A stretch of DNA of 64,000 nt from Rhodovulum sp. MB263 (GTDB lineage Bacteria > Pseudomonadota > Alphaproteobacteria > Rhodobacterales > Rhodobacteraceae): NCBI RefSeq assembly GCF_002073975.1, contig NZ_CP020384.1:1488001-1552000 (forward strand). Reading direction: 5' to 3'. The notes beneath the pieces are model-generated. The model was not told the DNA's origin. It saw nothing but the letters and a program-made list of their open reading frames with translations, and made no database searches. The position numbers and the translations under genes were made by a program. Positions 53,456 to 63,788 of this stretch are shown piece after piece (the first letter of the stretch is position 1; each line of letters starts with the position of its first letter).

Positions 53456-53956
53456 TCAGGCGCGTTCGGGCACCTCGAGGCCGAGCCAGTCGCGATAGAA
53501 GGTGTCGATATCGGGTTCGAAATCATGGATCACCGGATACCAGGGCGTCGGCGCCTCGACATCGAGCAGATCGCCCGAGAGCGGGCAGAAATATTCGCGG
53601 ATCACCTGCCAGTCGGTCGAGGGGGCCATCAGCTTGGGATAGATCTTCTCCATCGCCTCGGGCGTGTCGCGGACCCGGACCCTGGCATGCAGCTTCCAGT
53701 TCTCGGTCCAGTCGCAGAAATCATGCCCGGCCCAGCTCCGGATCACCCATTTCCTGTCCTCGGCGCGCTGGACGATGAAGAGCTTCGGCCCCAGCGGCAG
53801 GATGATCCGGTCGTCCCAGGGCACCTGGTCCTGCAGGATCTTCAGATAGATCTCGAACCGCTCGCGGTCCTTGGGCATGGACAGCATCTGATGCAGCGTG
53901 TCCTGGTCGATGGTGCCGTCCACGAGATCGCGGATCTTGGCTTCGGTATAGGCCAT
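53456..53956 (-). CDS. acxC: Acetone carboxylase gamma subunit
   Basis: This 166-aa subunit of acetone carboxylase closely follows the alpha subunit gene (55 bases). It has the characteristic DWTENWKLHARVRVRDTPEAMEKIYP and YFCPLSGDLLDVEAPTPWYPVIHDFEPDIDTFYRDWLG, the latter with a Cys within a small metal-binding-type fold. The heterohexamer (alpha2-beta2-gamma2) converts acetone, bicarbonate and ATP to acetoacetate in the cytoplasm. The length matches known AcxC. Confidence 0.94.
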   Translation of the reverse strand: MAYTEAKIRDLVDGTIDQDTLHQMLSMPKDRERFEIYLKILQDQVPWDDRIILPLGPKLFIVQRAEDRKWVIRSWAGHDFCDWTENWKLHARVRVRDTPEAMEKIYPKLMAPSTDWQVIREYFCPLSGDLLDVEAPTPWYPVIHDFEPDIDTFYRDWLGLEVPERA

Positions 53957-54011: not shown

Positions 54012-56321
54012 TCATTCCTCGACCAGCTGGACGATGTTCACATCGGGCAGTTCCGACAGGTCCATCGAATAGTCCTTGCCGTAGGACGGGATCGGCAGGT
54101 CGGCCTCCTTCAGTTGCCAGCTGTCCGGAAGATCCCAGAACGCCCGGAAATCGCGCTCGAATTTCGGACCGAGCTTGAACGAGGCGGCAAACATCTGCTG
54201 GACCTGGGTGCCCGCATCCTTGGCGAGGATCTTCTCGCGCTCGGCTTTCATCCATTCGCCGGTGGGCACAGACTGGGCCAGCCGCTCCTGCCGGATCTCG
54301 GCGCGGCGGGCTTCGGTCGCGGCCAGATCGGCCACCACCTGACCGCGCGCGTCCTCGCTGAGCACGACGCCATAGACGTCACTGGCGAAGCGGGCGAGCA
54401 GATAGCCGCCGTTGACATCGGCCGCGACCGCCTCGGGCTTGCGGTCGAGCGGGTCGCCGAAGCCCGGGCCACCACGCATGTAGTTGAGGTAGAGGTCGTA
54501 ATCGGCGAACATCTCCTCGGTGGTGATGGCCTGCTTGTCGCGCTTGATCCGGGCGCCTTCCAGCATGCTGTCCCAGACCGGGTTCTCGGGGTCGGTATCG
54601 CCGCCCCAGGGGATCGGCTCGCCCTTGGCGATCTTCTCCTTCAGCCCGGTGTCATGCGCGGCGAAGCGGTAGCCCGAGGCCGCCGGATAGCCGCCCATCA
54701 GCCCCCAGTCCGAGCTGATATGGCCGTTGCCCATGAAGAACATCGTCCAGTCCTTGGCGTTCCAGACCATGCGCAGGCTCTCGAAGCCGCAGCCGCCGCG
54801 ATACTTGCCCGCGCCGCCCGAGGAGGCCTTGATCTGGCGGCCGAGATAGACCAGCGGCTCGGCCAGTTCCCAGATCTCCATGTCGCCCATGTCGCCTTCG
54901 GGGTTCCAGATCGCCGCCGCATGGCTGATGCCGTCGCGCACCGCCGTGGCGCCGACCCCGTTGGCCGCGCATTCGAACGAGTTCACGGCATGGATCTCGT
55001 CATACTGGTTGAAGCCGCCGCCCTGCAGCCAGTTCGAGGTATTGGCGTTGCCCGCATTGACCTCTTCGAGATAGCCGCGCCCGAAATAGCTGCGCGACAG
55101 CCCGCGCCAGAGCGCCGTCCAGGACGAGACCAGGAAGTGCCAGCTATAGGCGAAGGCCACGCGCCGGTCGTCCGGGTTCATCCAGGTGCCCTTGGGCAGG
55201 CGGAACTCGGTGCCATAGGCGGCGCCGTCATTGATCATCTCGCTCGGGATCAGGCTCTGGGTCATCATCACCCAGATGCCCGAGGTGAAGCTGACCGAAT
55301 GGGCATTGTAGGTGTGCCAGCCCCATCGGCTCGAGCCTTCGAAATCGAGCCGCCAGGTTCCGTCCTTGCGGATCGTCATCTCGGAGGGCGTGTGCATGAT
55401 CGTGTCGACCTTGGCGAAGTCGGACGGCACCCGCACATCCTCGTGGCTGTAGGGCACGTCGACGAAGCCCACCTGGCGATAGGTGCCCGGAATGGTCATC
55501 GCCTTGATCCGGTTCTGAAGGCCCAGCCGGCCGTGCTCGATCGCCTCGTAGGCGAATTGCCAATAGGCATCGATCCCCTCGTCGGCGATCACCTCCTCGA
55601 CCAGCTTGCGGATCATGTGGCAGCCCGCGACCCGGGTGCGTTCGTCGAGCATCCAGTAGCGCGTGGTGCGCACCGCGCGCTGGCTTTCATGCAGCCAGTC
55701 GCGGAACAGCGTGTCGTTCTCGCCGATCTTGCGGCAGGTCACCGAATAGCCGTCGCCGAAGCGCTGGACCTGGCCCGTGGTCATCGAGCCCGGACCGACG
55801 GCGCCGGTATCGATCACATGGGTCACGCCGCCGACCCAGCCGATCAGCTCGCCCTCGTGGAAGATCGGCACGATGGTGTGGATGTCGCAGGGGTGGACGT
55901 TGCCGATCAGGCTGTCATTGTTGCAGAAGATGTCCCGGTCCTTGACGCCGGGATTGGACTCCCATCCGTTCTCGATCATGTATTTGATCGCGGCGCCCAT
56001 GGTGCCGACATGGATGATGATGCCGGTCGAGGTCAGGATGCAGTCACCGGCCGCGTTATAGAGGCTGAAGCACAGCTCGCCCTCCTGCTCGACGATGGGC
56101 GAGGCAGCGATCTTCTTGGCGGTCTCGCGGGCATCCACGACGCCGGCCCTGAGCCGCGAGAACAGTTTGTTATACTTGATCGGATGCTCGTCCCGCAGCT
56201 CCATGTGGCGCAGCCCGGCATAATGGCCGCTGCTCTTGGTGGCCTCCATGATCTTGTCGCGGTGCTGCTTGAGGGTCTCGCCGCCGCGGACGATGCCCTT
56301 GATATCGCTTTGAATGTTCAT
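54012..56321 (-). CDS. acxB: Acetone carboxylase alpha subunit (hydantoinase B/oxoprolinase family)
   Basis: This 769-aa large subunit matches AcxB in length. It begins MNIQSDIKGIVRGGETLKQHRDKIMEATKSSGHY and contains the HyuB-type core (DRDIFCNNDSLIGNVHPCDIHTIVPIFHEG) where Mn-binding and substrate carboxylation are thought to occur. The C-terminal FGDPLDRKPEAVAADVNGGYLL is also typical. The start follows GGGAGGAAACC, 22 bases after acxA. Confidence 0.95.
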   Translation of the reverse strand: MNIQSDIKGIVRGGETLKQHRDKIMEATKSSGHYAGLRHMELRDEHPIKYNKLFSRLRAGVVDARETAKKIAASPIVEQEGELCFSLYNAAGDCILTSTGIIIHVGTMGAAIKYMIENGWESNPGVKDRDIFCNNDSLIGNVHPCDIHTIVPIFHEGELIGWVGGVTHVIDTGAVGPGSMTTGQVQRFGDGYSVTCRKIGENDTLFRDWLHESQRAVRTTRYWMLDERTRVAGCHMIRKLVEEVIADEGIDAYWQFAYEAIEHGRLGLQNRIKAMTIPGTYRQVGFVDVPYSHEDVRVPSDFAKVDTIMHTPSEMTIRKDGTWRLDFEGSSRWGWHTYNAHSVSFTSGIWVMMTQSLIPSEMINDGAAYGTEFRLPKGTWMNPDDRRVAFAYSWHFLVSSWTALWRGLSRSYFGRGYLEEVNAGNANTSNWLQGGGFNQYDEIHAVNSFECAANGVGATAVRDGISHAAAIWNPEGDMGDMEIWELAEPLVYLGRQIKASSGGAGKYRGGCGFESLRMVWNAKDWTMFFMGNGHISSDWGLMGGYPAASGYRFAAHDTGLKEKIAKGEPIPWGGDTDPENPVWDSMLEGARIKRDKQAITTEEMFADYDLYLNYMRGGPGFGDPLDRKPEAVAADVNGGYLLARFASDVYGVVLSEDARGQVVADLAATEARRAEIRQERLAQSVPTGEWMKAEREKILAKDAGTQVQQMFAASFKLGPKFERDFRAFWDLPDSWQLKEADLPIPSYGKDYSMDLSELPDVNIVQLVEE

Positions 56322-56343: not shown

Positions 56344-58497
56344 TCACAGTTCCTTGAGGTGGAACAGGCGGTGTTCGTCGAGCCAGGTCTCGAACCCGTC
56401 CGGCACGACGAAGGTCGTGGCGTCGGATTCGATGATCGCGGGGCCGACGATCTGGTTGCCGGGCAGAAGCGCTTCCATCTGGTAGAGCTGGGCCTCGACC
56501 CAGCGGCCCTTGCGGTAGAACTGCCGCGAGCCGGTGCGCGCCTCGCGCGGCGGGGTGGCCTCCTGCAGCTCTTCCTCGGGGATCTTCGGTTTCGGGATCG
56601 GGACGGTGCCGCGCATGATCGCGCCGGTCACCGAATAGCCCAGCTCGGGCGAGCGGGCCGAGGCGGCATAGACCCGGCCATAGGTGTCGTTGAAGGTGTC
56701 GACCAGCTGGTCCCAGTCTTCGGCATCGCGGGCCGCGGCGATCGGGCTTTCGATTTCCAGATCGTTGAGCTGGCCGCGATACTGCATCCGGAAGCCGGGT
56801 TGCAGCGTGACCTTGTCGGCGGCATAGCCGTTGCGCTCGAATTCCTCCAGAACGCGTTCGGTCAGCTCGTCCCAGGCGGCCTGCAGCACCTTGGCCTGGG
56901 AGGCCTTGTCGGCCTCATGGGCCTCGGTGTCGATATTGATGTCGAGCGACTTGTCATAGCGGTACTCGAAATCGGCCGCAGCACAACCGAAGGCCGAGAA
57001 GCCCGCAGCCCAGGCTGGCACGATCACGTCCTCGAAGCCAAGCCCCTCGGTATAGCCATAGGTGTGGACCGGCCCCGCGCCGCCATAGCTGAAGCAGGTG
57101 AAGCTGCCCGGGCTGTAGCCCTTGCCCGAGATCATCGCGCGCATGTAGTCGCGGAGTTCCGCATCGAGCAACTCGATCACCCCGGCCGCGGCATCCTCGA
57201 CCGACAGCCCCAGCGGATCGGCAAGCTGCACCTTGACCGCGTCCCAGGCGCGTTGCCGGTCGAGCTTGACCTGGCCGCCGAGGAAGTTGTCGGGGTTCAG
57301 ATAGCCCAGCACGACATGGCAATCCGAGATCGAGACCGTGTCTATGCCGCTTTCGGCCCAGCAGACGCCGACCCGGTAGCCCGCGCTGTCGGGGCCGAGC
57401 TTGATCGCCTTGGTATAGGGGTCGAGCCGCACGAAGCTGCCCGCACCCGCGCCGACCGAGTCCATCGCCACCAGCGGCAGCGACAGTACCAGCCGCGCCA
57501 TGTCGGGATCGTTGCGGATCGTCAGCTCGCTTTGCGTGATCAGCGCCACGTCGAAGGAGGTGCCGCCGATATCGGAACAGGCGATGTTCTTGTAGCCCAG
57601 CTTCTCGCCCAGATACTTGGCGCCGATCACGCCGCCGATCGGACCCGAGACGATGGTGCGCGCCAGTTCCTTGGCCTTCCAGGAGATGGTGCCGCCATGG
57701 GTGGCCATCACCCGGAAGTCGAAGCGCGAGCCGTGCTCCTTGAAGGCGCCCGAGATGCCGTGCAGCGTCTGGCGCGAGGGTTCGGCGGCATAGGCCTCGA
57801 GCACGGTGGTATTGGTGCGGTGGGTCTCCTTGCGGACCGGGTAATAATCGGTCGAGGCGAAGACCGGGATCGTCTTGCCGCTGGCCTTGACCTCTTCCTC
57901 GACGATGTCGCGCACCCGGCGCTCATGGGTCGGGTTCTTGTAGGAATGCAGAAGCGAGATCACGATGCCTTCGACATCCTCGGCGATCAGCTCGCGCGCG
58001 GCGGTCCGGGCCGTGTCCTCGTTCAGCGGGATCACCACCGTGCCCATCATGTCGATCCGCTCGGCCACGCCCCGGGTCAGGTCGCGCGGCACCAGCGGAT
58101 CGTCGTAGTAGTGCGTGTTGATATGGATGCGGTCCTCGTAGGCGAAGCCCAGATAGGCCTGGATCGCGCGGCCCATGCGGTGGAAATCCTCCATCCCGGC
58201 ATTCACGATCAGCCCGACCCGAAGCCCCTTGCGCTGCACCACCCGGTTCAGCATCGCGGTGCCGGAATAGACCCCGGTCTGGATGTTGCGCAGCGCGTCC
58301 TCGAGCGTGAGGCCCCAGTGCTCGAGCCCCTCCCGGCTCGATTCCAGAAGGCCCTGGGCCTCGTTCGCGGGCGTGGTCTGCGCCTTGCCGACGACGAAGT
58401 CGCCCTCGGCATCGACGAAGAAGGTGTCGGTCATGGTGCCCCCGGCGTCGATGCCGAGCACCTGCACCGACCGCGCGTTGCGTCCGGTCTGTGTCAT
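56344..58497 (-). CDS. acxA: Acetone carboxylase beta subunit (hydantoinase A/oxoprolinase family)
   Basis: This 717-aa subunit has an ASKHA-like nucleotide-binding fold: VLGIDAGGTMTDTFFVDAEGDFVV at the N-terminus and ACSDIGGTSFDVALI in the middle, with FSYGGAGPVHTYGY towards the C-terminus. It is thought to phosphorylate acetone and bicarbonate using ATP. The length equals Xanthobacter AcxA, and gene order acxR-acxA-acxB-acxC is the same. It starts behind GGGAGGAAACACGC. An array of CTGTCCGG/CCGGACAG octamers lies upstream and probably controls it. Confidence 0.95.
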   Translation of the reverse strand: MTQTGRNARSVQVLGIDAGGTMTDTFFVDAEGDFVVGKAQTTPANEAQGLLESSREGLEHWGLTLEDALRNIQTGVYSGTAMLNRVVQRKGLRVGLIVNAGMEDFHRMGRAIQAYLGFAYEDRIHINTHYYDDPLVPRDLTRGVAERIDMMGTVVIPLNEDTARTAARELIAEDVEGIVISLLHSYKNPTHERRVRDIVEEEVKASGKTIPVFASTDYYPVRKETHRTNTTVLEAYAAEPSRQTLHGISGAFKEHGSRFDFRVMATHGGTISWKAKELARTIVSGPIGGVIGAKYLGEKLGYKNIACSDIGGTSFDVALITQSELTIRNDPDMARLVLSLPLVAMDSVGAGAGSFVRLDPYTKAIKLGPDSAGYRVGVCWAESGIDTVSISDCHVVLGYLNPDNFLGGQVKLDRQRAWDAVKVQLADPLGLSVEDAAAGVIELLDAELRDYMRAMISGKGYSPGSFTCFSYGGAGPVHTYGYTEGLGFEDVIVPAWAAGFSAFGCAAADFEYRYDKSLDINIDTEAHEADKASQAKVLQAAWDELTERVLEEFERNGYAADKVTLQPGFRMQYRGQLNDLEIESPIAAARDAEDWDQLVDTFNDTYGRVYAASARSPELGYSVTGAIMRGTVPIPKPKIPEEELQEATPPREARTGSRQFYRKGRWVEAQLYQMEALLPGNQIVGPAIIESDATTFVVPDGFETWLDEHRLFHLKEL

Positions 58498-58572
58498 GCG
58501 TGTTTCCTCCCGTTTCAGCGCCGTCTCGAGGCGCCGTGCCGACAGAGTAGCGGGCCGGGCCGCGCGGCCGTG

Positions 58573-58749
58573 CTGTCCGGGCGGGCCGGGCGCTGTCCGG
58601 ACAGCCGGGAGGCCGCCCTGGCGTGGCGTTACAGGGAGGCGGGCGCCAGATCGTCCGATGCGGGACGGGCTGTCCGGAAGCGAGGACAGGCTGCTGCCGG
58701 ACAGGATCTGTCCGACTGTCCGGACAGGTGTCGGACAGGGGCCGGACAG
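58573..58749. repeat. Array of eight CTGTCCGG/CCGGACAG octamers upstream of acxA
   Basis: Exact octamers occur at 58573, 58593, 58597, 58670, 58697, 58716, 58720 and 58742. Pairs at 58593-58604 and 58716-58727 form perfect CTGTCCGGACAG palindromes; the first extends to GCTGTCCGGACAGC (58592-58605). Near-copies TGTCGGACAG (58729-58738) and CTGTCCGA add to the array. The region lies between acxR and acxA, 76-252 bases ahead of acxA, as expected for upstream activator sites, probably bound by AcxR. No good -24/-12 promoter was found. Confidence 0.8.
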
Positions 58750-58804: not shown

Positions 58805-60643
58805 TCAGTCCTCGGGCCGGGCGAGGCCGTAGGCGGCGATCTTGGTATAAAGCGTCGAGCGCGCGATGCCGAGACGGCGGGCGGTGGCCGACATGTTGCC
58901 GTCGCTTGCCGCCATCGCCTGGAGGATGCGGCTGCGCTCGTCCGTTTCGGTGGCGCGGGTCGGGGTGGCGGGCAGGGCGTCCGGGGCGCGGATCTTGTCG
59001 GGCAGGTCCGGGACGTCGATCACGCCGCGGTCGCAGAACAGCACCAGGGCCTGCATGTCGTTTCGAAGCTCGCGCGCATTGCCCGGCCAGGGATAGGCCA
59101 TCAGCGCCTGCTGTGCGGCTCGGTTCAGCGCCGGGGCCGGGCGCCCGGCTTCGGCTGCGGCCTTGGCCAGGAAGTGCCGGGCCAGAAGCGGAATGTCGGC
59201 GGCCCTGTCGCGCAGCGGCGGCAGCCGGAACTGGATCGTCGAGATGCGGTGGAAAAGGTCGCGCCGGAACCTGTTCTCGGCGACGTCGCGGGGCAGGTCG
59301 CGATGAGTCAGCGCGACGACCCGAAACTCCGAGCGTTCCGGCCCGTCGGCGTTGCGCGCCCCGGGCAGCCCGTCTTCCAGCACCCTTAGCAGGAAGGGCT
59401 GCACGTCGCCCGGCATCTCGCCGATCTCGTCGAGACAGAGCGTGCCGCCATGGGCCGCGGCCACCGCGCCGCTGCCGTGACCCTCGGTCTCGAACAGCAC
59501 GCTCGCGGCGCTGTCGGCGCGCAGCGCGCCGCAATTGACCGGCACATACTGGCCGTGGCGCTGGGACGAGGCGTCATGGAGCGCGCGGGCCAGCAATTCC
59601 TTGCCGGTGCCGGTCTCGCCGCTGATCAGAATCGGGACGTTCGATCCGGCCACGCAGCGCGCATGCTCGAGCAGCTTCAGTATTGCCGGGTCGGTACCCA
59701 GAAATGCGTCGAACGGGTCGCCGCTGGGGCTTTCGAGAGGGCGGCGACGGCCGCGATAGGCGGTCAGCACCATCCCGATCGGCAGGCCGTCGCGCCGCAG
59801 GATCTCGCTATCCATGCCCGAGAAACGGTCGGACATCTCGCCTGCCCAGTCCTCTTCGCCGCGCTCGCCGATGGCGCCGCCCCGGATCGCCTGGTTGGAC
59901 CAGACCGCGCGGGTGTCGTGCAGCACCGCGCCGCGCCGGTCGATCAGGATCATATGGGTATTCTGCCAGCGGGCGCGACGGTCCATGAATTGCTGGTAGA
60001 GCGCCTCGCGCTCTTCGCCGATCAGTCGCGCCAGCGCCTGGGTGATCTCGTCCCCGACCGCCATCGCCAGCGCCATGCTCTGGGGCTGGAACACGTCGGT
60101 CGGCCCCGAGATGTCGACGATGCCGCGCAGCGTCCCGTCGACCGGGTCGAGGACCGGCACGGCGGCGCAGCTCCAGCGCTGGATCTCCTCGCAGAAATGC
60201 TGGATGCCATGGACCAGGGCCGGTCGGCCCGAGGCCGCGGCGGTGCCGATGCCATTGGTGCCGATGCTGGTCTCCTGCCAGTCGCCGCCGATCTGCAGCC
60301 GGTTCTCGCGGCCGGTGTCGATCGCGCCCGGATCGCCCTCGGTCTCGGTGATGATGCAGTCGGGCGAGGTCAGGATCATCATCAACCCGGTCTCTTTCAG
60401 CATCGCCCGCGCGCGCAGAAGGGCCGGCCGTGCCAGCCGTCGCAGCTCGGCGGTTTCCTTGCGCTTGCGCAGCAGAATCTCGTCGGGGACCTGAGGTGCC
60501 GACAGCCTGTCGGGAAGCACCCCGCAATCCCGCGAGCGCAGCCAGGAGGCCGCGAGATCGGGATCGAGATCCCCCGGCAAAAGACCGGTCTCCAGAAAGC
60601 GGGCCCAGTCCGCCTTCCGGACGAAACGTCCGCGTGCGACCAT
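58805..60643 (-). CDS. acxR: AcoR-type transcriptional activator of acetone carboxylation
   Basis: This 612-aa regulator has an N-terminal GAF-type sensory region (about 70-220, with GDWQETSIGTNGIGTAAASG, typical of AcoR/AcxR), an AAA+ domain (Walker A SGETGTGKELLA, Walker B GGTLCLDEIGEM, sensor RRDLFHRIS) and a Fis-type helix-turn-helix end (MSATARRLGIARSTLYTKIAAYGL). AcoR-type proteins sense the substrate and turn on the operon. The GAFTGA loop needed to contact sigma-54 is missing: the segment reads LFETEGHGSGAVAAAHGGTL. The start at 60643 follows GGGAGGAG. It lies upstream of acxABC, as in Xanthobacter. Confidence 0.92.
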   Translation of the reverse strand: MVARGRFVRKADWARFLETGLLPGDLDPDLAASWLRSRDCGVLPDRLSAPQVPDEILLRKRKETAELRRLARPALLRARAMLKETGLMMILTSPDCIITETEGDPGAIDTGRENRLQIGGDWQETSIGTNGIGTAAASGRPALVHGIQHFCEEIQRWSCAAVPVLDPVDGTLRGIVDISGPTDVFQPQSMALAMAVGDEITQALARLIGEEREALYQQFMDRRARWQNTHMILIDRRGAVLHDTRAVWSNQAIRGGAIGERGEEDWAGEMSDRFSGMDSEILRRDGLPIGMVLTAYRGRRRPLESPSGDPFDAFLGTDPAILKLLEHARCVAGSNVPILISGETGTGKELLARALHDASSQRHGQYVPVNCGALRADSAASVLFETEGHGSGAVAAAHGGTLCLDEIGEMPGDVQPFLLRVLEDGLPGARNADGPERSEFRVVALTHRDLPRDVAENRFRRDLFHRISTIQFRLPPLRDRAADIPLLARHFLAKAAAEAGRPAPALNRAAQQALMAYPWPGNARELRNDMQALVLFCDRGVIDVPDLPDKIRAPDALPATPTRATETDERSRILQAMAASDGNMSATARRLGIARSTLYTKIAAYGLARPED

Positions 60644-61046
60644 ATCTCCTCCCAAGGGCCGTGCCCGGCCCCGAATACGTCGTCACGATATTGCGGTGCA
60701 GTCTATCTGCTGAGACCGGGTCTGGAAAGGCAGCCTTGCGCAGCACAAGATCGGCAGAGTGCCGCCGGTTTCCGGGCCGGGCGAAAGCGCCTGTTTGCGG
60801 CAGGATAGCCGGTGTTAGCTTCGGAGGGCGACTCGTGTTGCGCATAGCGCGGGTCGTGGCGGGATCCGTCCGGGCATTCCTGGCCGGAAGCCGTCTGAAT
60901 ACCCTCTGCCGGACCATCCCCCGGCGTCGAAGGCCTCCGGCACGAACCCCGCCGGAGGCCTTCTTCGATCTTGCGGCCCCGATCGATCTTGCGGCCCGGG
61001 TCGCGTCCCGGCCCTTGCGGGCCGCCTCTGCGAGCGGGATAGGGGC
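60644..61046. other. Intergenic region between ilvH and acxR
   Basis: This 403-base gap should carry the acxR promoter and the end of the ilv transcript. A strong 13-base hairpin, GAAGGCCTCCGGC (60929-60941) and GCCGGAGGCCTTC (60951-60963), has a nine-base loop and is a candidate transcription end for ilvH, though T-runs are poor. A second G/C-rich hairpin near 61000-61025 (GGCCCGGGTC... region) is weaker. No gene is supported. Confidence 0.45.
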
Positions 61047-61607
61047 TCAGATGCCGCGGGCCAGGGCCGCGACGCCGGTGCGCGCCATCTCGGTCAGGCC
61101 GAGCGGTCGCATCAGCTCGCCGAAGGCGTCGATCTTCTGCGGCGTGCCGGTGATCTCGAAGACGAAGCTCTCGAGCGTCGAATCGACCACGTTGGCGCGG
61201 AAGATATCGGCAAGCCGCAGCGCCTCGACCCGCTTCTCGCCGGTGCTGGCGACCTTGAACAGTGCCAGTTCGCGTTCGACCGACGGGCCCTCGACAGTCA
61301 GGTCATGGACCTCGTACACCGGGACGATCCGGCCGAGCTGGGCCTTGATCTGCTCGATTACCGCGGGCGTGCCGGTGGTGACGATGGTGATCCGGCTCTT
61401 GTGCCCGGCATGGTCGACCTCGGCCACGGTAAGGCTGTCTATATTGTAGCCGCGCCCCGAGAACAGCCCGATGACGCGGGCAAGAACGCCTGCCTCGTTG
61501 TCGACGGTCACCGCCAGGGTGTGCCGCTCGCTGACTTCGGCATTGGGGTCGCGCAGGTCATAGGCGGAGTGTTTCGAGGTGCCTTGCTGAATGTTCAGTT
61601 GTGCCAT
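61047..61607 (-). CDS. ilvH: Acetolactate synthase small (regulatory) subunit
   Basis: This 186-aa regulatory subunit has an N-terminal ACT domain (HTLAVTVDNEAGVLARVIGLFSGRGYNIDSLTVAEVD) that binds valine for feedback inhibition, and a C-terminal ferredoxin-like domain ending EMARTGVAALARGI. The start at 61607 (MAQLNIQQGTSKHSAYDLRDP) gives the usual alphaproteobacterial N-terminal extension. It follows ilvI on the same strand, with about 430 bases between, larger than usual. Confidence 0.95.
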   Translation of the reverse strand: MAQLNIQQGTSKHSAYDLRDPNAEVSERHTLAVTVDNEAGVLARVIGLFSGRGYNIDSLTVAEVDHAGHKSRITIVTTGTPAVIEQIKAQLGRIVPVYEVHDLTVEGPSVERELALFKVASTGEKRVEALRLADIFRANVVDSTLESFVFEITGTPQKIDAFGELMRPLGLTEMARTGVAALARGI

Positions 61608-62032
61608 GTCCGTACTTCTTGTTCCCAGTTCCGCCTTGCATGTCGTCCGGAGGGCGCCGCGGCCCTCCGGGTCGTTTTCATCCGGGCGCGCGGTTCGCGG
61701 TTGACGCCAGGCCCGAAGGCGTCGGCGGCACGACAGATTTCCGCCGGTTCCCGCCGTCCGGCAGCAATGCCTGGACAGGGCCAGTGCCCGCCGTCGCATC
61801 CGCCTATCCCCGATCTGCCGGGCAGGGGCGGTTCAGAGCCGCGCCCGGCCCTCCGGATGCTCTGCGTATCCTCGCGGTCCCGGATCCCGCGCAGACGTCC
61901 CGCGCCGGCCGGTTGATGCCGGCCGAGCGGCAGATACGCATTGCCGCCGGGGGTGTCGGGGCCGGGCGCCCCCGCGCTTTCCCGCCGACCCCCGGCCGTG
62001 AGGGCTGCGAACCGGAATTCCTTCCGCATCAT
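61595..62032 (-). CDS. Possible small gene between ilvI and ilvH (doubtful)
   Basis: A 145-codon frame starts ATGATG behind a good GAGGAGCG site immediately after ilvI and ends by overlapping the ilvH start by 13 bases. The product is Gly/Arg/Pro-rich (MMRKEFRFAALTAGGRRESAG...) with no recognised domain and could easily be a chance frame in high-GC DNA. Its placement within the operon and its ribosome binding site are the only arguments for it. The 432 bases (61608-62039) hold nothing else I can support. Confidence 0.22.
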   Translation of the reverse strand: MMRKEFRFAALTAGGRRESAGAPGPDTPGGNAYLPLGRHQPAGAGRLRGIRDREDTQSIRRAGRGSEPPLPGRSGIGGCDGGHWPCPGIAAGRREPAEICRAADAFGPGVNREPRARMKTTRRAAAPSGRHARRNWEQEVRTWHN

Positions 62033-62039
62033 CGCTCCT

Positions 62040-63788
62040 CTAGACCAGCGCCGCGCCTTCCTTGAAGGCCTCGGCATCGGCGGCCAGCAGCATGTCGTTA
62101 TGCGCCCGCCCCGAGGGGATCATCGGGAAGCAGTTCTCGTGCTTCTCGACCAGGCAGTCGAAGATCACCGGCCCGTCATAGGCCAGCATCTCGGCGATGG
62201 CATCGTCCAGATCGGCCGGGTCCGAACAGCGCAGGCCCTTGGCGCCGAAGGCCTCTGCCAGCTTGACGAAATCGGGCAGGGCCTCGGACCAGCTGTGCGA
62301 ATAGCGCCCGCCATGCAGCAGCGTCTGCCACTGCCGGACCATGCCCAGCCGCTCGTTGTTGAGGATGAACTGCTTGACCGGCAGGCGGTACTGAATCGCG
62401 GTGCCCATCTCCTGCATGTTCATCAGCCAGGACCCTTCGCCCGCGACGTTGACGACCAGCGCATCGGGATGCGCGACCTGCACGCCCACCGAGGCCGGCA
62501 GGCCGTAGCCCATGGTTCCGAGCCCGCCCGAGGTCATCCAGTGCTTCGGAGCCTCGAAGCCGAGGAATTGCGCGGCCCACATCTGGTGCTGGCCGACCTC
62601 GGTGCAGATGAAGCGGTCCTTGCGGTCCCTGGTCAGCGCCTCGAGCCGTTGCAGCGCATATTGCGGCTTGATGATCTTGTCGGAGTTCTCGTAGCGCAGG
62701 CAGTTGACGGCCTTCCATTCGGCGATCTGCTCCCACCAGGGCTTCAGCGCCTCCTTGTTGACCTTGCGCCCGCGCGATTTCCAGATCCTGAGCAGATCCT
62801 CCAGCACATGGGCCACGTCGCCGATGATCGGCAGCTCGACATGGATCGTCTTGTTGATCGACGAGGGATCGATGTCGATATGGGCCTTGAGCGAGCCCGG
62901 GCTGAAATCGGCCACCCGGCCGGTGATGCGGTCGTCGAAGCGCGCCCCGATGCAGATCATCAGGTCGCAGTCATGCATGGCCAGATTGGCCTCGTAGAGA
63001 CCGTGCATGCCCAGCATGCCCAGCCACTTGTCGCCCGAGGCCGGATAGGCGCCCAGCCCCATCAGGGTCGAGGTGATCGGAAAGCCCGTGGCTTCGACCA
63101 GCTCGCGCAGAAGCTGGGTGGCGGCCTCGCCCGAATTGACGACCCCGCCGCCGGTATAGAAGATCGGCCGCTCGGCGGTCTCCATCGCCTCGACGAGACG
63201 GGTGATCGTCTCGCGGTCGCCCTTGACGCGCGGGTGGTAGTGGCCCTGGCCCGCCTTGACCGGGCCGACATAGGTGCCCTCGGCGAACTGGACGTCCTTG
63301 GGGATGTCGATCAGCACCGGGCCGGGGCGGCCCGAGGTCGCGACATGAAAGCCCTGATGGATGGTCTGGGCCAGCTGGTCGGGATCCTTCACCAGCCAGT
63401 TATGCTTGGTGCAGGGGCGGGTGATGCCGACGGTATCGGCCTCCTGGAAGGCATCGTTGCCAACGAGGAAGGTCGGAACCTGGCCCGACAGCACGACCAG
63501 CGGGATCGAGTCCATCAGCGCGTCCGTGATGCCGGTGACGGCATTGGTCGCGCCGGGGCCCGAGGTGACGAGCACGACGCCCGGCTTGCCGGTCGAGCGG
63601 GCATAGCCCTCGGCGGCGTGAACCGCGCCCTGTTCGTGGCGCACCAGGATATGCTCGATATCGTTCTGCTGGAACAGCTCGTCATAGATCGGAAGCACGG
63701 CCCCGCCAGGATAGCCGAAAATTACATCGACCCCCTGGTCCTTGAGCGCCTGAACCACCATTTTCGCGCCGGTCATGGGCTGTGTCAT
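62040..63788 (-). CDS. ilvI: Acetolactate synthase large (catalytic) subunit
   Basis: This 582-aa ThDP enzyme makes acetolactate or acetohydroxybutyrate in branched-chain amino acid synthesis. It has the catalytic Glu region IEHILVRHEQGAVHAAEGYAR, the FAD/dimer middle domain, and the ThDP-Mg motif NVAGEGSWLMNMQEMGTAIQYRLPVKQFILNN, where the usual GDG is GEG. The start is ATGACACAGCCC at 63788, preceded by GGAGAACGAAAAG. It is controlled by a leader-peptide attenuator directly upstream. Confidence 0.96.
   Translation of the reverse strand: MTQPMTGAKMVVQALKDQGVDVIFGYPGGAVLPIYDELFQQNDIEHILVRHEQGAVHAAEGYARSTGKPGVVLVTSGPGATNAVTGITDALMDSIPLVVLSGQVPTFLVGNDAFQEADTVGITRPCTKHNWLVKDPDQLAQTIHQGFHVATSGRPGPVLIDIPKDVQFAEGTYVGPVKAGQGHYHPRVKGDRETITRLVEAMETAERPIFYTGGGVVNSGEAATQLLRELVEATGFPITSTLMGLGAYPASGDKWLGMLGMHGLYEANLAMHDCDLMICIGARFDDRITGRVADFSPGSLKAHIDIDPSSINKTIHVELPIIGDVAHVLEDLLRIWKSRGRKVNKEALKPWWEQIAEWKAVNCLRYENSDKIIKPQYALQRLEALTRDRKDRFICTEVGQHQMWAAQFLGFEAPKHWMTSGGLGTMGYGLPASVGVQVAHPDALVVNVAGEGSWLMNMQEMGTAIQYRLPVKQFILNNERLGMVRQWQTLLHGGRYSHSWSEALPDFVKLAEAFGAKGLRCSDPADLDDAIAEMLAYDGPVIFDCLVEKHENCFPMIPSGRAHNDMLLAADAEAFKEGAALV

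Follow-up and report, generated by a model that had tools for sequence, protein, structure and literature searches.

The closest described relatives of the locus analysed here are the acxRABC clusters of Xanthobacter autotrophicus Py2 and Cupriavidus metallidurans CH34, which hold a homologous regulator and the same operon (PMC2864759; PMC2244623). In both X. autotrophicus and C. metallidurans, the GAFTGA motif and a sigma-54 promoter have been reported for acx (PMC2864759), and AcxR has been described as an activator of the operon (PMC2864759; PMC2244623). Other regulators of this family lack the motif. NtrC of R. capsulatus and Caulobacter has no GAFTGA and acts at sigma-70 promoters, and sigma-70 promoters are likewise regulated by VpsR (PMC10274813, where the name is misprinted as VspR). 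The Vibrio cholerae VpsR is a GAFTGA-less bacterial enhancer-binding protein (bEBP; structures 7v2b and others) whose AAA+ domain is related by sequence to that of AcxR, while its sensory input and operator differ.

The regulator of the Rhodovulum acx operon resembles these NtrC proteins in that the L1 loop of the AAA+ domain is deleted while the remaining bEBP architecture is retained, with a sigma-70-type promoter predicted here. NtrC, on the other hand, is a response regulator that is phosphorylated. AcxR carries a GAF domain and has another operator, and the dyad search points to one local target for it. By analogy, GAFTGA-less NtrC offers a precedent for AcxR acting on sigma-70 polymerase. 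Although regulators of this kind are already known, the conversion of an acetone carboxylase operon was described in no paper found; the literature search, whose coverage did not extend to Sluis 2002 (X. autotrophicus and R. capsulatus acx), returned no paper naming both acetone carboxylase and GAFTGA.

The acx locus and its regulator

The window, the whole stretch of 64,000 nucleotides analysed from Rhodovulum sp. MB263, includes an acx operon in which the minus-strand genes acxR and acxA are separated by a 307-bp gap that contains an array of repeated half-sites. The genes and associated features are:

58805 to 60655, minus strand: acxR, 616 amino acids, with GAF, AAA+ (Sigma54_activat) and Fis-type HTH domains (Pfam, PDB relatives)
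59456 to 59500, minus strand: codons for the stretch near AcxR residues 386-400 that lacks the GAFTGA loop L1 (AcxR alignment; FleQ by phmmer)
58502 to 58511, minus strand: acxA ribosome-binding site, GGGAGGAAAC
56344 to 58497, minus strand: acxA, acetone carboxylase beta subunit, hydantoinase A family (Pfam/NCBIfam)
54012 to 56321, minus strand: acxB, acetone carboxylase alpha subunit, hydantoinase B family (domain search)
53456 to 53956, minus strand: acxC, probable gamma subunit, 166 amino acids (position and length; annotated gamma subunits occupy this place in relatives)

The acxA gene is 84-97% identical to those at acx loci of Rhodobacterales. Directly upstream of acxR, on the same strand, are acetolactate synthase genes (61047-63788), with the small subunit at 61047 (Pfam) and an ilvI/ilvB-like large subunit at 62040. 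Orthologues of AcxR in three other Rhodovulum are 87-90% identical, the nearest named relatives being Rhodovulum visakhapatnamense and R. kholense (87%), and AcxR of the window type occurs in 4 of 16 genomes of the genus. The genus holds two acx modules, since plasmid pRGUI01 of Rhodovulum sp. P5 carries a Cereibacter-type module rather than the window's chromosomal type.

AcxR has the features of a bEBP of the NtrC/AcoR type, namely an AAA+ domain (PF00158, E 7e-37) with Walker A (GETGTGKE) and Walker B (LCLDE), and a Fis-type HTH (HTH_8, PF02954, E 1.5e-11). The L1 gap was seen again in the comparison with FleQ. Among the acx locus of the window and those gathered from 26 other genomes and plasmids, GAFTGA was found in none of the 17 AcxR proteins encoded beside acxA in the Rhodobacterales group (the window and 16 relatives, one of them on a Martelella plasmid), whereas it is present in all eight from outside the Rhodobacterales (Ancylobacter, Methylorubrum, Acidibrevibacterium, families f33 and f42, and Cupriavidus). 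The tree is consistent with the loop having been lost once (support 89/83) and does not need two independent losses. In Rhodovulum AcxR, Walker A, Walker B and the arginine-finger region are intact, while several other GAFTGA-less AcxR have also lost Walker B. The Rhodobacterales records annotate these GAFTGA-less proteins as sigma-54 regulators.

Architecture and conservation of the half-site array

A preliminary description of this DNA had reported eight exact octamers (CTGTCCGG/CCGGACAG), including two perfect CTGTCCGGACAG palindromes, between 58573 and 58749, and all of them are present. The two palindromes, each scored on both strands, account for four of the eight. The density was said to exceed chance, and this holds: at the genome-wide rate 0.018 octamers would be expected per 177 bp (Poisson P ~1e-19 for eight, or ~1e-14 with each palindrome counted once), and the whole window has 17 octamers against 4.0 expected, a number reached in none of 100 shuffles. 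The octamer itself is not enriched genome-wide, as its 419 occurrences in 4.16 Mb match the 420 of the reversed control pattern, which also rules it out as a dispersed repeat; it is the local cluster that stands out, at a density that the genome as a whole does not share. The 12-bp palindrome CTGTCCGGACAG has four copies in the genome, two of them in the array. The few other TGTCCGGACA palindromes of the genome lie at positions 1401309, 1786586, 472687 and 1787376, two of them 790 bp apart.

Alignment of the acxR-acxA gap across four Rhodovulum species (the window and three relatives) distinguishes two kept parts, a distal block and a proximal pair. With F for TGTCCG and R for CGGACA, the elements of the array are:

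58742 to 58749, minus strand: the outermost of the octamers, CTGTCCGG, with 11 bp between it and the next half-site downstream
58697 to 58738, minus strand: distal block CTGTCCGACACCTGTCCGGACAGTCGGACAGATCCTGTCCGG, half-sites F-11-F-4-R-8-R-11-F, spacing identical in four Rhodovulum
58716 to 58727 and 58593 to 58604: the two CTGTCCGGACAG palindromes
58709 to 58726, minus strand: 18-bp dyad TGTCCG-N6-CGGACA, the element that comes closest to TGTCCG-N5-CGGACA, the AcxR dyad in other species
58670 to 58677, minus strand: isolated octamer CCGGACAG, between the distal and proximal blocks
58574 to 58603, minus strand: proximal pair TGTCCG-N18-CGGACA, at predicted positions -63.5 and -39.5, including most of the palindrome at 58593-58604

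What the species have in common is TGTCCG half-sites at set spacings, rather than the octamer or the 12-bp palindrome, and two further half-sites of the array (58709 and 58732) lie outside the octamers. In the other three Rhodovulum, the full-length palindrome is found in the distal block only. Its proximal copy is incomplete there, appearing as separate half-sites, so the palindrome is probably not the conserved operator unit. The isolated octamer has no exact counterpart in these three relatives, two of which (G210 and kholense) have a CGGACA half-site nearby. The spacing of the proximal pair is N16-18 in the four Rhodovulum, where TA(C/G)TCT and the ribosome-binding site follow the pair closely; the window's pair corresponds to TGTCCG-N17-CGGACA, the operator form in other Rhodobacterales, seen with N17 in 14 further loci. 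The distances from distal to proximal part are 100, 89, 67 and 66 bp. From its spacing, cooperative binding at the array is plausible. The four distances differ from one another by about whole 11-bp turns, but a test with random lengths gave p = 0.12 at 10.5 bp, and the p = 0.02 obtained with a freely chosen period is suggestive only.

Half-sites occur upstream of acxA in four Rhodovulum and 14 other loci, and the array is kept in the acx promoters of three close relatives, whose lacking it would have spoken against the proposed role. The 18-bp dyad matches at 12 of 12 positions, as none of 200 shuffles did, and TGTCCG-N5/6-CGGACA (17-18 bp) has a single copy in the 4.16-Mb genome, within the acxR-acxA gap. 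Dyads of related form precede acxA in other Rhodobacterales, Ancylobacter and Cupriavidus; in the GAFTGA-bearing Cupriavidus CH34 the dyad (TGTCCGGATTCCGGACA), of the same TGTCCG-N5-CGGACA type, is far upstream, as is that of Ancylobacter. Of the loci with GAFTGA, those of Methylorubrum and Acidibrevibacterium showed no clear dyad ahead of acxA, and neither did Paraburkholderia; the dyads there in f33 and C. pinatubonensis score no better than shuffles. These cases weigh against the proposed operator role.

Beside one AcxR paralogue a related dyad is present: genome G138 (C22:24718-26481 and downstream) encodes a second AcxR-like GAFTGA-less protein followed by a zinc-dependent alcohol dehydrogenase-like gene, with TGTCCGAAAATCGGACA between the two and TATCCT 44 bp further on. 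This pair perhaps controls 2-propanol oxidation. In another genome (G875), acxABC keeps operator and hexamer without an adjacent AcxR, and the best AcxR of that genome, which shares 46% identity with AcxR of Rhodobacter CZR27, is on another contig. Because the dyad is unique beside acxR in the window's genome, related dyads lie at other acxA genes and at the paralogue, and the operator is kept in a genome where AcxR is encoded elsewhere, AcxR is by far the best candidate ligand. The array would then be a regulatory operator cluster of acxABC, likely bound by AcxR, as this co-occurrence suggests.

Predicted promoter elements upstream of acxA

Candidate -24/-12 elements were sought upstream of acxA with a simple scoring of our own for TGGCACG-N4-TTGC (maximum 29), compared with shuffles. 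The best score in the window is 20/29 (p 0.72), and in the 17 GAFTGA-less loci no score exceeds 22/29 (p >= 0.11), whereas all eight GAFTGA loci reach 26-28/29 (p <= 0.005). Loop loss and promoter type correlate perfectly, with 17 against 8 loci, counts that are not independent because the loop was probably lost in a single event.

When the 14 clade loci that are not of the Rhodovulum type were aligned without gaps, anchored on the promoter-proximal CGGAC, two strongly conserved islands preceded the purine-rich ribosome-binding site. The first is the operator, GCGTCCGCAGCATGTCCG...CGAAAATCGGACA, with invariant TGTCCG at -23 and CGGAC at 0. The second, exactly 22 bp past the operator in 14 of 14 loci, is a [CT]ANNNT hexamer with invariant A (position 2) and T (position 6). 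As in TANNNT, these two positions carry the sequence signature of a -10 element. With the hexamer taken as -12 to -7, which in the window would put the acxA transcription start near 58537 (minus strand), the two half-sites of the 14 loci have their centres at -60.5 and -37.5, and the matching pair of Rhodovulum is at -62.5/-63.5 and -39.5/-40.5. For comparison, a class II activated sigma-70 promoter has its activator site near -41, with the -10 hexamer a fixed distance away. The corresponding element of the window is:

58544 to 58549, minus strand: predicted -10 hexamer, which reads TACTCT here and TAGTCT in two relatives; it matches [CT]ANNNT and follows the proximal half-site by 24 bp

In the four Rhodovulum, the operator and TA(C/G)TCT are 24-25 bp apart, compared with 22 bp in the other 14 loci, a difference that speaks against the sigma-70 reading. 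A simple scan for the sigma-70 consensus found no promoter, and TACTCT would be a weak -10. Both points also count against that reading, although a negative scan is what a weak promoter dependent on an activator would give. Given the negative scan, conservation does not prove the hexamer to be a -10 element, and its assignment here is a prediction from sequence. No terminator was found between acxR and acxA.

Putative mechanism and alternatives

It is likely that AcxR, bound to the array of TGTCCG half-sites, activates acxABC through sigma-70 RNA polymerase, with the distal block adding to activation. AcxR, with its GAF, AAA+ and Fis HTH domains, has lost the L1 loop, the part that contacts sigma-54. 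The proximal half-sites, at about -60 and -40, would stand in for a -35 element upstream of the weak -10 TACTCT. Additional AcxR probably binds at enhancer-like sites in the distal block, which lies another 66-100 bp upstream, and would add to activation through cooperative binding or looping, and acetone sensed through the GAF domain would lead to induction. The Rhodovulum promoter differs in this from the Py2 and CH34 systems, in which AcxR has GAFTGA, a -24/-12 element is present and the CH34 dyad is far upstream, whereas in the window both motif and element are missing and half-sites lie at the promoter.

AcxR might instead be mainly a repressor, or act in both ways, with the proximal half-sites over the -35 region blocking polymerase until acetone is sensed. 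The half-site at about -40 does overlap the expected place of a -35 element, and GAFTGA-less regulators of the TyrR type can repress. This is nonetheless unlikely: with no recognisable -35, the unaided promoter would be weak, and at other acx loci the role reported for AcxR is that of an activator (PMC2864759; PMC2244623).

A classical sigma-54 enhancer, in which array-bound AcxR drives sigma-54 polymerase at an unrecognised -24/-12 element as in Xanthobacter and Cupriavidus, seems quite improbable. GAFTGA and a sigma-54 promoter are reported at those other acx loci (PMC2864759), AcxR is a bEBP homologue whose ATPase motifs are intact in Rhodovulum, and the genome has one copy of rpoN. Against this, the motif is absent from all 17 AcxR of the clade, the best -24/-12 match is no better than shuffles, and conservation sits on the -10-like hexamer instead. 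As AcxR is without the GAFTGA loop and the gap without -24/-12, the sigma-54 mechanism does not fit. Of the preliminary proposal that the octamers are upstream activator sites, the part that is supported is an operator cluster of acxABC; a reading as classical sigma-54 sites is not supported.

It is very unlikely that another transcription factor, such as PpsR/CrtJ, occupies the array. The PpsR/CrtJ consensus is TGT-N12-ACA, which the 18-bp dyad TGTCCGGACAGTCGGACA happens to fit; however, the dyad is single in the genome, unlike the site of a global regulator, its spacer is N5 rather than N6 in relatives, the betaproteobacterium Cupriavidus included, and it tracks AcxR even to the paralogue beside another gene. 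That the inverted half-sites are RNA hairpins (for processing or attenuation between acxR and acxA) or an intergenic repeat is scarcely credible, for although the gap folds as RNA better than shuffles (z = -2.8), repeated complementary half-sites would be expected to fold in this way, nothing resembling a terminator was found, the octamer is not dispersed in the genome, spacing is kept relative to the promoter-like hexamer, and some half-sites are direct repeats.

If AcxR does act on sigma-70 polymerase, the operon may represent a natural switch from sigma-54 to sigma-70 control, in which one L1 loss was accompanied by disappearance of -24/-12 and placement of the operator at -35 while regulator and half-site were kept. 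In Rhodovulum, the housekeeping polymerase would in addition be driven from a distal, looped array by an AcxR whose ATPase core is intact. This reading is possible, and we advance it tentatively. The 17 switched and 8 unswitched loci form a clear before-and-after set that illustrates a possible joint conversion of a sigma-54 activator and its promoter to sigma-70 control, and the acx locus offers a testable operator code for AcxR. On plasmid pMM593 of Martelella mediterranea (Hyphomicrobiales), a GAFTGA-less acxR of the Rhodobacterales type is accompanied by its promoter, which suggests that the switched module has moved horizontally.
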